Shown piece by piece: positions 1,753 through 6,476 of a stretch of DNA of 6,489 bases. Within the stretch, counting starts at the first letter, position 1. Each line of letters starts with the position of its first letter. The notes beneath the pieces are model-generated. The model ran no database searches. It was not told where the DNA came from and worked only from the letters and a program-made list of their open reading frames with translations. The stretch is from Methanobacteriota archaeon (GTDB lineage: Archaea; Halobacteriota; Methanosarcinia; Methanosarcinales; Methanosarcinaceae), in NCBI GenBank assembly GCA_030837265.1, contig JAUPKV010000503.1, forward strand, positions 1 through 6,489, in the 5' to 3' direction. A program made the position numbers and the translations under genes.

Positions 1753-2826
1753 TCAGGAATTACTGTTATCATTTACTTCTTTTACCTCTTTCATTTCTTT
1801 TTGGAATAATTCCCAGCTTGCAGTAATACCTGCATTTTCCATGAAAATCTCATTATCTCCTCCAACAATATATCTACGAGATATGGCCTTTATAATCTGC
1901 CTCAAAGCCTTTCCTTTATTGGCGTCATCAGGTAAAACAAAACTTTTACCGTCTTCACTAATGTCAAAAAGCAGTATCGAGCCAGCAATTTCTTTTAAGC
2001 GTTTCAACTCAGAGAATGTTAAATATTTTACCTCGCCTTCTAATAATACTCTATTATTTAGCATTCTTTGGACGATCCTATCCTCTTTGACAACATCTTG
2101 TATACTTTTAAATGCAGGATTTTCAACAAATACTTCCATCTGATTAATCATGCTTATAGCATTTTGTTCTAATTCCCAACTCAAATCAAAAATATCTTCA
2201 AAATTCTTCTTTGAGAATATTATGGATCTTGTAACCTTCTTAGCATCAGTGTTAAATAATATATCCGCTCTAGACGATATCCTAAAGCCTTTCTCATCTC
2301 GTAATTCCGATATGTAATTATTTGCATCTGAATCGAAAATTGCTAAAAAACTCTCCGAGTTATTTAAAACGAATTTTGGCTGCAACCTTGTTATTTGCCC
2401 ATAGAAACATTCATTTTTTTTGCAAAAGATCATAATCCCAGCAAAATTTAGACTCATCCTATCGAGTTCATTTTGACTGATTTCACGATCAAAATTGTGC
2501 TCCAATGGATTTTTGAAATAACTCCATGTACTCACACCATCTAAGATAGCCCATTCATTAGTCTCTTGAGGAACTCCTGGATTATACTTGCAAATGTTGT
2601 CAAAATCAATTTTAGCAAAATTTTCTTTCATCCACATTAAAAGCTTATTAGAAACTTTTTTAGTATCTATTTCAGGCGATTTAAAAACATATTTAGTTTT
2701 TTTATGATTATCTCTATATTTTCTTATAAAACAAATGTGGGCATAATCCGCGTCATCCTTAGTGTCACTTGTCCAGAAAATAAAGCCAGGAGATTTAAAA
2801 CAATTTGATAGTTCATCTTGCAACAT
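1753..2826 (-). CDS. kwaB: KwaB-like DUF4868 protein, Kiwa anti-phage system
   Basis: I read this 357-residue soluble protein as KwaB, the cytoplasmic partner of membrane protein KwaA in Kiwa defence; work on the bacterial system describes KwaB as a DNA-binding protein acting against injected phage DNA. What is seen: no signal peptide or membrane segment, and a mixed alpha/beta protein. A DUF4868-like stretch lies around residues 150-290 counted from the upstream Met (a strand with RADILFNTD, then a KKNFEDIFDLSWEL segment), followed by a long helical region and a charged, Lys/Glu-rich C-terminus ending in a polar tail. The start at 2826 is preferred because AGGAG lies 5 nt before its ATG. An in-frame ATG at 2859 would add 11 residues but has no ribosome binding site and lies inside kwaA. 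The gene follows kwaA by 17 bp. It is somewhat longer than the roughly 315 residues I recall for E. coli KwaB. The identification is from family pattern plus the KwaA neighbour, not an alignment. No clear terminator follows. Confidence 0.78.
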   Translation of the reverse strand: MLQDELSNCFKSPGFIFWTSDTKDDADYAHICFIRKYRDNHKKTKYVFKSPEIDTKKVSNKLLMWMKENFAKIDFDNICKYNPGVPQETNEWAILDGVSTWSYFKNPLEHNFDREISQNELDRMSLNFAGIMIFCKKNECFYGQITRLQPKFVLNNSESFLAIFDSDANNYISELRDEKGFRISSRADILFNTDAKKVTRSIIFSKKNFEDIFDLSWELEQNAISMINQMEVFVENPAFKSIQDVVKEDRIVQRMLNNRVLLEGEVKYLTFSELKRLKEIAGSILLFDISEDGKSFVLPDDANKGKALRQIIKAISRRYIVGGDNEIFMENAGITASWELFQKEMKEVKEVNDNSNS

Positions 2827-2831
2827 ATTAA

Positions 2832-2836
2832 CTCCT
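2832..2836 (-). promoter_or_regulatory. Ribosome binding site fixing the kwaB start
   Basis: On the minus strand AGGAG is followed by TTAAT and then ATG at 2826, an ideal sequence and spacing. It sits just downstream of the kwaA stop (2844-2846). It supports translation of kwaB from the shared kwaAB message starting at 2826 rather than at the upstream in-frame ATG at 2859. Confidence 0.8.
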
Positions 2837-2843
2837 GTAATAT

Positions 2844-3407
2844 TTACTTCTCTTTCCATAGATTGTCAGTTATTTTATAAATTTTCACGTATTTGCTAAC
2901 ATTTCTATGTCTCTTTGTAGTTAGCATAAAACCATCCATATTATGCATTTCAATTTCGTAGATATTGTAACCAAAGGAATAATTCAAAAGTGGGTTAATG
3001 CAAAAAAGCGAAGTTTTAATGTAAGCATATAATATTAAAGCGAAAAGTAAGCAAAATGCGAACAAATCGTACAAACCATTTTCAAATGTAATACAAAATG
3101 GGACTACGTATGTTAAAAGAAAACCAAGCATTTCAGTATTCTTCTCAGATTTAATTTGAACTTCGACTTCTCTGGGTACTTGAGAATCGATTCTACCAAG
3201 TATTCTTCCCACTAAACGCTTAAATAGATAATATAAACATACAAAGAAAATGATAACTGCAATAAACAACCTAATTTTTGGAACGTCTATATCGATGTAA
3301 TTCAAAAATATGTTATGCAAAAAATCTAAATTTCGTATCGCAATTACAGCAAAAAGAGGTAAGTATGCGAACAATGTCAATATAATTTTTGTATTATTAC
3401 TTATCAT
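2844..3407 (-). CDS. kwaA: KwaA-like four-TM membrane protein, Kiwa anti-phage system
   Basis: This 187-residue integral membrane protein is read as KwaA, which in bacterial Kiwa sits in the inner membrane, is reported to sense phage attachment or membrane perturbation, and assembles with KwaB. Four hydrophobic segments are visible at about residues 7-25, 46-63, 92-107 and 112-131. A charged loop of about 25 residues (KRLVGRILGRIDSQVPREVEV) separates segments 2 and 3. After an INPLLNYSFGY element (about 137-147) comes a short polar, probably beta-rich cytoplasmic tail (147-187) with basic residues KRHRNVSKYVKIYK. There is no cleavable signal peptide. Size, topology and position directly before a DUF4868 gene are what is expected of KwaA. 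The ATG at 3407 has a modest upstream GAAGTGAT that could pair with the 16S 3' end. Base composition is more AT-rich than hsdR. On sequence alone it would only be called a membrane protein; the pairing carries the call. Confidence 0.75.
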   Translation of the reverse strand: MISNNTKIILTLFAYLPLFAVIAIRNLDFLHNIFLNYIDIDVPKIRLFIAVIIFFVCLYYLFKRLVGRILGRIDSQVPREVEVQIKSEKNTEMLGFLLTYVVPFCITFENGLYDLFAFCLLFALILYAYIKTSLFCINPLLNYSFGYNIYEIEMHNMDGFMLTTKRHRNVSKYVKIYKITDNLWKEK

Positions 3408-3412
3408 TGCCC

Positions 3413-3420
3413 ATCACTTC
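3413..3420 (-). promoter_or_regulatory. Weak ribosome binding site for kwaA
   Basis: On the minus strand GAAGTGAT lies 5 nt before the kwaA ATG and resembles part of the GGAGGTGAT complement of the 16S rRNA 3' end. It is weaker than the kwaB site. There is no competing in-frame start nearby: the ATG at 3414 is out of frame. Confidence 0.4.
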
Positions 3421-3525
3421 AAACGTACCCACAATTATCTAATTCTCAAGTTTTAATTCAAAGTTCATCTTCATTAATTTTCAAATCAAAAATACTTTGA
3501 GTTAATCATCAACTGAAGACAAGAG

Positions 3526-3537
3526 TATTAAATAAAC
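3526..3537 (-). promoter_or_regulatory. Possible archaeal TATA box for kwaAB
   Basis: On the minus strand the sequence GTTTATTTAATA resembles an archaeal TATA element. It lies about 119 nt before the kwaA start, which would give a leader of roughly 90-95 nt; long leaders are common in Methanosarcina. AT-rich sequence makes such matches frequent, and the site directly follows the hsdR oligo-T tract, so this is only a candidate. Confidence 0.25.
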
Positions 3538-3556
3538 AAAAATTCAGGAAAAAAGA
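3538..3556 (-). terminator. Oligo-T tract after hsdR, possible archaeal terminator
   Basis: Starting 12 bases after the hsdR stop, the minus strand carries six T's (3549-3554, within TCTCTTTTTTCC) and then TTTTT at 3538-3542. Archaeal RNA polymerase terminates at T-rich tracts in the non-template strand without needing a hairpin. This would end or weaken hsdR transcription before kwaA, so kwaAB would need either read-through or its own promoter. I see no stable stem beside it. Confidence 0.4.
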
Positions 3557-3566
3557 GAACATAATA

Positions 3567-6476
3567 TTAATAGTGTTCCCTTATATACTCATAGGCTTTT
3601 TCAAAAAGTTCCTGGTCTTTATGAAGTTTGTATTTTAGCAGAGTTTTTCGTAAAGCTTTCTTAATCTCTTTTTCACCTGTATCCGTCCACTGCCAGCCGT
3701 CAAACCGGGTGTATTTTACAACACTATCGATGTCGTTAACGATTTTTTCAACTATTACTGGAGTTTGTTCAATTTTACATTCCATAAATAACTGGGTTAG
3801 GGCTTCCTTTGTATTGTCGACAGGTTCAGCAGGAGTTTCTCTTTCCAGTTTGACAGTTTCCTTTGCCATCTCCAAAAGCCCTTTTAAGAATTCGATGCTA
3901 TTGATAGTATTTCTATAATGTTTGTTTTTTAAATCTTCCAGTCTTTTACCCAGTTCTTCAAACCTTGGGTCTTTTGCATTCTTGTGCAGCTTCCACTCAA
4001 TCTTAATTTCAATATCTCTAGCTCTCTTAGATGCTTCTTTTTCTGAGATTTTCTCAAGGATATCTGCATCCATTATCAGGGTTTCAAGATCATCTCTAAT
4101 CGTTTGAACGGTGGTGTTCTCATGTATAAGGTCTAGAGTTTTAGGTCCCAGTACATACCAGACAAGTTTTCCATCTCCACTGGTTGGTTTGATAGACTGA
4201 TATACCTGGGTCAACCACTTGTAATCGGTTTCATAAGGATTTAAAAAAGAGTCTGGAGAGAGTGCTTCCCAGTGCCGTGCAAGATAGGAATAATCTGCTG
4301 CAAACTTGTCTCTCAGTTCATTTGTGAGCAGACAGTCTTGGGCAGGAAGCAAACCTTCATATCCTTCAAGGCTCCGGTCAACTCCTTCAAAATAAGCTAA
4401 ACAAGTTTCAAGGGCAGGCGGGAGCTCATCTTTCAATTTATTGAGATTAGATATTACATTCTGTATCTCTTTTATGTCAAAGTTGAGAGCATTTGCAACA
4501 TTGTCAAAAATGCCTAGATAGTCAACTACAAGGCCGTGGTCTTTGTCTGGATAGGGACGGTTTACTCGACAGATTGCCTGAAGAAGGGTATGGTCTTTCA
4601 TTGGTTTATCGAGATACATAACCTCATTAATTGGAGCATCGAAACCTGTTAAGAGTTTTGAGGTTACAATAAGGAGTCTAAGCGGGTCAGTCGGGTCTCT
4701 AAAACGATCCAGCAATTTTGCAAGTTCATCGTCAGTCAATGAGTAATTTTTCTTCCAATCTTCAGGGTCCCCCTGCGAGAGGGTCATAACCACAGCAGAC
4801 TCCTCTGGATTCAGGTACTTATCAATTTCCTGTTTATAAAGATGACATGCCTCTCTGTCAAAAGTGACGATCTGTCCTTTGAAATTGCCTGGTTCGATGT
4901 GCTGTTTATAGTGATCTATAATATTTTTGCAGACTTTTCTGATCCTGTCCGGAGCCTTTACAAGTACACCGAATTTTGCAGCACGCTTTGATAGCTGGAT
5001 TTTATCGTCTTCCTCCAGCTGATCGGTCATCTCATGGAAGGTTTCATCAATCATTTTCTGGTCAATATGAAGTTCTACGGGTCTTGGCACAAAATAGATC
5101 GGAAGAGTTGCTTTGTCTTTAAGAGACTGCTCAAAACTGTATTTATTCATATATCCGCTTTCATCTTCTTCCGCCCCAAAAGCCCAAAAAGTGTTTCTGT
5201 CTCTTGTATTTATCGGGGTACCTGTGAGCCCAAAGAGAAATGCATTCGGAAGCGCTTCTCTCATCTTTTTTCCAAGATCTCCTTCCTGAGTCCGATGTGC
5301 TTCGTCAACCAGGACAATGATGTTATCTCTTCGGTTTAAAACCCCATCTGCCTCGGCAAATTTATGGATCGTGGTAATGATGATCTTTCGCGTATCCTGT
5401 TCAAGTAAACGCTTTAACTCATCTCTTGATTCTGTCGTTACTGTATTTGGGATACTAGCAGCATTAAATATCCCGCTAATCTGGGAATTCAGGTCAAGGC
5501 GATCTACAACAACAATAACTGTGGGGCTTTTAAGTTCAGGATTCTGTCGAAGCTGCATGGCTGCGTACACCATCAACAGGGACTTTCCCGACCCTTGAAA
5601 GTGCCATATAAGCCCTTTTTTAATCCTACCTTCAACGACCCTTTTTATAATCTGCTTCGTTGCTTCATACTGCTGGTATCTGCAGAGAACCTTAATTTTT
5701 TGGCCTTTTTGATTAGTACTGAATAATGTGAAATTCCTGGTAATATCAAGCACAGATTCCGGACTCAACATCATGTTTACTGCATGTTTTACTTCTTCTA
5801 GCTGTTCAAAAGCAGTATCTGTAGTTCTCCTCCAGGGCTGCCACTTTTCAATCGGAAGCTTGATTGACCCCACGCGATAGTTTTTCCCTTCACTTGCAAA
5901 ACAGAAAACATTTGGTACAAATAATTCCGGAACGGATTTCTGGTATTCATCAAGCTGAATAGCTCCATCAAGCCAGGATATCGAAGGTCTCACCGGACTT
6001 TTTGCTTCCCCAATAACCAGAGGAATCCCGTTTACGAGCAGTACAAGATCCGGCCTTCGGTTCAGGTTCCTTTTAGGTGTGAAACTGTACTGTGTGGTAA
6101 CTATGAATTCATTGTTTTCCGGATTCTCGTAATCAATCAATTTTATAGATACGTGCTCCCCGCGCTCTTCAAAAGGCATCGTTTTTTCATTTTTGAGCCA
6201 CCGGAAAAACTCTTCATTGGCTTTTACAAGCCCTACGCCTCTGACTGAAATGAGAATAGCTCTTAATTTATAGATGATTTCATCTGCACGGCTCGGGTTT
6301 TCTGCAATAAGAGGGTTCAGTCTGATAAGTGATTTCAGGAGATTTTCTTCCACAAGGATATCTGATTCTGCCCTGTTAAGTTCGTTTCTCGGGACAAATT
6401 TCCACCCAATGTTTTTCAATAGATCCCGAATGAAATTTTCAACTGAATTTTCCTCATTGAACGCCAAAAAACCCAT
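3567..6476 (-). CDS. hsdR: Type I restriction enzyme R subunit (HsdR), nuclease and DNA translocase
   Basis: This is the motor and nuclease subunit of a type I restriction-modification complex. With HsdM and HsdS it binds unmodified sites, translocates DNA using ATP and cuts at a distance. The 969 residues hold every expected part. An N-terminal nuclease domain (HSDR_N) has PD-(D/E)xK residues D143, E157 and K159, plus a QxxxY motif at Q174/Y178. The SF2 helicase core has a Walker A (FQGSGKSL, K298), Walker B/DEAH box (391-394), motif III (TGTP, 418-421), motif V region (LLTGFDAP, 608-615) and an arginine-finger-type motif VI (QAICRVNRPY, 633-642). The C-terminal part from about residue 855 resembles the T1RH-like/DUF3387 domain, which links HsdR to the methyltransferase core. 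The gene appears functional. The ATG at 6476 is the first Met in the window, but AGAAGGA abuts it with no spacer and the frame stays open to the edge (ATC TTA GAA GGA), so a start just beyond 6489 is quite possible. hsdM and hsdS are not here and probably lie upstream. Confidence 0.96.
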   Translation of the reverse strand: MGFLAFNEENSVENFIRDLLKNIGWKFVPRNELNRAESDILVEENLLKSLIRLNPLIAENPSRADEIIYKLRAILISVRGVGLVKANEEFFRWLKNEKTMPFEERGEHVSIKLIDYENPENNEFIVTTQYSFTPKRNLNRRPDLVLLVNGIPLVIGEAKSPVRPSISWLDGAIQLDEYQKSVPELFVPNVFCFASEGKNYRVGSIKLPIEKWQPWRRTTDTAFEQLEEVKHAVNMMLSPESVLDITRNFTLFSTNQKGQKIKVLCRYQQYEATKQIIKRVVEGRIKKGLIWHFQGSGKSLLMVYAAMQLRQNPELKSPTVIVVVDRLDLNSQISGIFNAASIPNTVTTESRDELKRLLEQDTRKIIITTIHKFAEADGVLNRRDNIIVLVDEAHRTQEGDLGKKMREALPNAFLFGLTGTPINTRDRNTFWAFGAEEDESGYMNKYSFEQSLKDKATLPIYFVPRPVELHIDQKMIDETFHEMTDQLEEDDKIQLSKRAAKFGVLVKAPDRIRKVCKNIIDHYKQHIEPGNFKGQIVTFDREACHLYKQEIDKYLNPEESAVVMTLSQGDPEDWKKNYSLTDDELAKLLDRFRDPTDPLRLLIVTSKLLTGFDAPINEVMYLDKPMKDHTLLQAICRVNRPYPDKDHGLVVDYLGIFDNVANALNFDIKEIQNVISNLNKLKDELPPALETCLAYFEGVDRSLEGYEGLLPAQDCLLTNELRDKFAADYSYLARHWEALSPDSFLNPYETDYKWLTQVYQSIKPTSGDGKLVWYVLGPKTLDLIHENTTVQTIRDDLETLIMDADILEKISEKEASKRARDIEIKIEWKLHKNAKDPRFEELGKRLEDLKNKHYRNTINSIEFLKGLLEMAKETVKLERETPAEPVDNTKEALTQLFMECKIEQTPVIVEKIVNDIDSVVKYTRFDGWQWTDTGEKEIKKALRKTLLKYKLHKDQELFEKAYEYIREHY

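Follow-up and report, generated by a model that had tools for sequence, protein, structure and literature searches.

A putative divergent Kiwa cassette behind a type I restriction gene in a methanosarcinal archaeon

The contig JAUPKV010000503.1 of a Methanobacteriota archaeon (assembly GCA_030837265.1), analysed over its full 6,489 nucleotides and called the window below, carries two adjacent genes for a membrane protein of 187 amino acids (aa) and a soluble protein of 357 aa. We conclude that the pair is probably a divergent cassette of the anti-phage system Kiwa, kwaA-kwaB, co-directional behind the type I restriction gene hsdR and predicted to defend the cell at its membrane. Kiwa is ordinary in archaea and the window's branch of it is rare; what is new here is most likely a KwaB subfamily overlooked by annotation, together with its setting. 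Since the KwaB side of this branch is invisible to present annotation models, Kiwa in the lineage would go uncounted. G numbers denote genomes, and L numbers loci or contig stretches compared with the window.

Judged by profiles, the identity of the 187-aa protein as KwaA is secure. It matches the PADLOC KwaA model PDLC00213 (E 5.5e-21) and 12 further KwaA models, the weakest at 0.017, reaches 62 bits against NCBIfam NF041622 (KwaA), below the 100-bit cut-off, and is matched by the solved KwaA chain 9mrg_A with E 7.2e-5. A preliminary description of this DNA had counted four transmembrane segments; three appear clearly as hydropathy peaks, in 19-residue windows starting at 6, 44 and 112, while the fourth, directly ahead of the last, is weaker (window start 94, score 1.42) and plausible. 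The ratio of nonsynonymous to synonymous divergence (dN/dS) is 0.13 for kwaA (window versus L001) and 0.19 for the clade's kwaB (window versus G001), so both genes show the mark of purifying selection and have been kept. In Methanohalophilus profundi (L002 ~10001-10075) kwaA is apparently frameshifted near its N-terminus, next to a T run, with the start matching in one frame and the remainder in another, through either a sequencing error or real inactivation.

Comparisons of profile with profile and of predicted fold favour KwaB as the identity of the 357-aa partner. Searched among 5.8 billion sequences, this protein has relatives that bring its clade, with its own cluster counted, to 13 protein clusters; the three relatives of named source come from an uncultured Methanolobus, M. 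profundi and a euryarchaeal metagenome-assembled genome. When the clade was compared with eight KwaBs that accompany KwaAs elsewhere in archaea, 263 columns were aligned (E 1.3e-4, probability 54%). Rerun without realignment, the eight-KwaB set scored 39.3 over clade positions 214-320, above all 60 column shuffles (maximum 28.3) and all 60 block shuffles (maximum 36.9); a 71-sequence KwaB set scored 35.1 (positions 68-241) against shuffle maxima of 25.4 and 29.4, and controls gave 16.3 and 19.2 with reversed profiles and 11.9 with a KwaA profile. The PADLOC KwaB model PDLC00223 is matched weakly by 6 of the 13 clade members (5.6e-4 to 0.096). A renewed search with the clade alignment found no protein beyond the 13; with other KwaBs added to the alignment there were 361 matches, and the 120 listed belong mainly to one 293-aa group. 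Solved KwaB chains rank first among 350,542 PDB chains for each of two predicted models of the partner and lead the fold matches of both by a wide margin, although the models are of low confidence and only their C-terminal domain is well matched. The KwaB-like signal in these models is strongest in the C-terminal helical domain, which was recovered, and the N-terminal alpha/beta domain of KwaB was not well matched.

The preliminary description had taken an archaeal Kiwa to be unusual in itself, a view that a wider survey does not sustain. Of 392 genomes drawn evenly from the window's phylum, 17 gave matches to KwaA at E<=1e-3, all of them below the curated 100-bit cut-off. Sixteen remain after removal of G460 (21 bits, three internal stops), among them G001 and G002 of the window's clade and G141 (20.1 bits), which was retained on account of its neighbours hsdS, a KwaB and hsdR; L001 and L013 are the same place, and L008 and L010, which look alike, were both counted. 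Outside the window's clade, all 14 KwaA genomes have a gene directly downstream, which matches PADLOC KwaB at E<=1e-3 in 13. The partner in the remaining genome (L017 1973-2956, in G116), which no PADLOC model matches at this threshold, may represent another KwaB branch that has escaped recognition, or else a different kind of partner. Within the clade, the order kwaA-partner on one strand is shared by L001 and L002. The clade's own KwaB is present in 2 of the 185 genomes searched from the order of M. profundi (hereafter the order). Genes that look by eye like the AlbA_2/Schlafen type recur downstream of kwaB (L001 2863-4233, L012 1-391, L015 2989-3405, L016 2967-3417); the only such candidate checked by profile is the fused protein of L002 4430-6679, upstream of hsdR. 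Among the matches listed, no paper on Kiwa in methanogens or inside hsd operons was found by title or abstract. The available text of the PADLOC paper indicates that archaea were surveyed too (PMC8565338), and archaeal Kiwa may already be in print there.

The neighbourhood of hsdR, already pointed out in the preliminary description, proves recurrent. In 6 of the 16 genomes (G002, G141, G205, G297, G352 and G445), domain matches to hsdR and hsdS are found no more than 6.5 kb from kwaA and share its strand; kwaAB stands between hsdS and hsdR in five of these, and G002 has the pair behind hsdR, like the window. If loci were placed at random, 0.16 such genomes would be expected (P ~5e-9, assuming a uniform model), an estimate that uses a radius picked after the distances had been seen and ignores the clustering of defence genes. 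Nine of the 16 are without a nearby type I locus, the contig of G370 beginning 1.4 kb away, and G001 stops at a contig edge. A Bartonella plasmid has the order hsdM-hsdS, an unannotated 171-aa open frame, kwaB, hsdR, and we dropped the idea of an archaeal-only setting: Kiwa is repeatedly found physically joined to type I restriction genes in archaea, and on at least one bacterial plasmid as well. The Bartonella frame (L057 7486-8001), which lies between hsdS and the DUF4868 gene and is missing from the record's gene table, is hydrophobic and KwaA-like by eye. The 8-kb flanks of a Microvirga kwaAB hold no annotated type I gene, in a gene table that is incomplete.

Other genes occupy comparable places. 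Three close relatives (G151, G171 and G084) have, at the position of the window's kwaAB, a co-directional open frame behind hsdR that matches GmrSD_N (in G171 it is only 148 aa long and lies near a contig end); in the more distant relatives G109, G116, G136 and G137 the frame next to hsdR is on the opposite strand. The hsdS-hsdR interval of close relatives (L050 3736-5409, L051 1367-5057) holds a gene of the OLD-type ATPase/TOPRIM kind, accompanied in L051 by one for a UvrD-type helicase, a combination that we take to be reminiscent of Gabija. In G001, the hsdR contig (L052) and the kwaA contig (L001) both end within the counterpart of the window's 159-bp spacer, as expected if an insertion element, here conjectural, had split a single hsdR-kwaA arrangement. 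The contig ends (L001 1-60, L052 1-70) look similar in inverted orientation by eye, and nowhere do they overlap exactly over as many as 20 bases.

Synonymous divergence (dS) from G001 is 0.40 for the window's kwaA, 0.40 for its kwaB and 1.65 for its hsdR. These unequal values point to neighbours with different histories, as for a moving module, and kwaAB may be a movable cassette. They also fit a view compatible with the one preferred here, and quite possible though hardly to be presumed, in which a functional Kiwa rides passively in a defence island, functionally unconnected with hsdR. D. pigrum has an integration hot spot that houses Kiwa together with restriction systems, according to the available text of PMC8547433. 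Against this view, five of the six genomes with the restriction link have the order hsdS-kwaAB-hsdR in one direction, a closer arrangement than a defence island would require.

The assignment of the partner to KwaB has also to be weighed against several negative results. The preliminary description had called this protein DUF4868-like and had rested the Kiwa identity on a significant DUF4868/KwaB match to a hidden Markov model (HMM); none was found for the 357-aa protein in the Pfam (PF16162), NCBIfam or PADLOC models, and these results count against a Kiwa identity of the pair; recognition by a curated profile is a rule of annotation, distinct from the structural definition. That identity is supported at profile level for KwaA, and for KwaB by the sensitive profile-profile and fold methods only. 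Set A2 has 19 proteins, and at E<=1 PF16162 recognises 12 of them but not the window protein. Searches of PDB sequences gave no KwaB with the 357-aa protein and none with the clade profile, which found only chance kinase matches (best E 0.75); the same profile had no match in viral contigs, nor, with the threshold relaxed to E 10, in 15 genomes that carry KwaA. Plain HMMER did not separate the clade/KwaB signal from shuffled decoys: with the clade profile against the 14 other KwaB partners, the best real score of 7.6 bits fell below the best decoy at 13.2, and in the reverse direction the best decoy was outscored by 3 of the 13 clade members. A separate effector in KwaB's place beside a true KwaA, making the locus Kiwa-like only in its membrane half, would account for the missing curated match, which 13 of 14 other archaeal partners have, for the failure of the clade (A1) profile to pick out other KwaBs, and for identities of 11-15% to KwaBs outside the clade. 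We nonetheless judge it unlikely, given the lead of the KwaB chains in both fold comparisons, the collinearity of the 263-column alignment and the contact of six clade members with a KwaB model. Slightly more improbable still is a restriction guard, in which KwaAB would watch the type I enzyme and act only if a virus disables restriction: PrrC, embedded in a type I locus, senses its inhibition (available text of PMC12707154), and kwaAB likewise stands behind hsdR in the window and beside co-directional type I genes in six archaeal genomes, but nine others have KwaA with no such locus nearby and plasmid-cloned Kiwa of S. thermophilus gives resistance (available text of PMC12322248).

For the Kiwa cassette, the mechanism can be sketched from the bacterial system. 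In the text available of the review PMC12904381, bacterial KwaA forms membrane tetramers that each bind four KwaB dimers, building up a lattice. This complex collects where DNA is injected; KwaB attaches to the incoming DNA and, with no cleavage, halts its replication and late transcription. A second paper, in its available part, classes Kiwa under DNA degradation (PMC12322248), and the accessible portion of a third describes a RecBCD-dependent pathway, KwaB active without KwaA, and phage resistance conferred by S. thermophilus Kiwa (PMC11514479). By homology, KwaA tetramers of the window's system would hold KwaB dimers in a membrane lattice drawn to the site of entry, so that membrane KwaA would bring the predicted DNA-binding KwaB onto incoming virus DNA; KwaB would bind this DNA and block replication and late transcription, with no cutting. 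The setting suggests that the type I enzyme may cut unmethylated DNA while Kiwa holds the DNA that escapes, and that kwaAB could move as a cargo module able to fill the slot after hsdR.

A link to RecBCD is less readily transferred. The preliminary description had assumed that the host has no RecBCD, and a proxy agrees: RecC-family matches occur in 1 of the 185 genomes of the order and, among 14 controls, in E. coli only, RecB and RecD not having been searched. A RecBCD partnership, or a RecBCD-linked trigger, is therefore unlikely to have carried over to this Kiwa. The sole RecC-like match of the order (G103, contig C148 779-1912) could be contamination. It is a rather unlikely extension of the Kiwa reading that HsdR acts in RecBCD's stead as the machine at DNA ends, its failure or products calling KwaB, so that KwaAB would be at once a membrane-bound second line, a restriction guard and an exchangeable module of hsd operons. 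Which elements of the bacterial mechanism can be dispensed with, envelope sensing and the RecBCD link for instance, is a question for which the pair is a natural test case; its lineage has relatives among the genetically tractable methanogens.

The arrangement first described, a 187-aa gene, a 17-bp gap and a 357-aa gene beside hsdR, was borne out by the open reading frames and the starts of relatives. From its first ATG the kwaB frame spans 1753-2859 (368 aa); all 11 relatives that cover the N-terminus start at residue 12 or 13 of this frame (P0013, a fragment, was excluded), and the start entered in Table 1 is therefore the likely one.

Table 1. Features of the kwaAB locus in the window.
Feature	Position	Strand	Description
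kwaB	1753..2826	minus	357-aa soluble protein, putative divergent KwaB subfamily; open frame extends to ATG at 2859
kwaA stop-kwaB start gap	2827..2843	minus	17 bp
kwaA	2844..3407	minus	187-aa membrane protein, predicted sensor/scaffold; open reading frame list and KwaA profiles
hsdR-kwaA spacer	3408..3566	minus	159 bp
hsdR, type I restriction enzyme subunit R	3567..6476	minus	upstream neighbour of kwaA; profiles and close homologues

HsdR matches TIGR00348 with 551 bits (cut-off 285), as well as HSDR_N and SWI2_SNF2. It is 92% and 93% identical to the proteins of G151 and G171 and 88% to those of G001 and G084, all four of the order. On the strength of the two highest of these identities the contig is archaeal, as the preliminary description had proposed; the source is presumably Methanosarcina-like and a likely methane producer. 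A scan for bacterial-type promoters, whose coverage leaves archaeal promoters outside, stayed at chance level in the window; the single terminator-like site lies within kwaB, and searches of the window for RNA families and tRNAs found none. The gene whose 3′ end occupies positions 2-256 shows a weak match to an acetyltransferase (GNAT), below threshold. Downstream of kwaB, a unit of ~340 bp occurs three times in direct orientation at positions 680-1541, the copies being 74-84% alike by segment; a search of the 185 genomes of the order, scoring no more than two candidates in each, found similar DNA in 4 (E<=1e-10).

Among known systems the pair most resembles Kiwa as solved (PDB 9mrg, 9mrx, 9mtn, 9nyu), with adjacent genes, a membrane KwaA upstream of a soluble KwaB, a KwaA found by sequence, and solved KwaB chains as top fold matches. 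It differs in a putative KwaB that lies beyond the PF16162, NCBIfam and PADLOC profiles and has 357 aa against 315-321 in the solved chains, and in a host order nearly without RecC. The other archaeal KwaAB pairs (14 loci within L005-L021) share the gene order of the window, whereas their KwaAs are 16-29% and their KwaBs 11-15% identical to its own. PrrC, GmrSD and the OLD/UvrD genes are likewise accessory defence genes inside or behind hsd operons; they belong to other protein families than KwaAB, for which a guard role is only putative.
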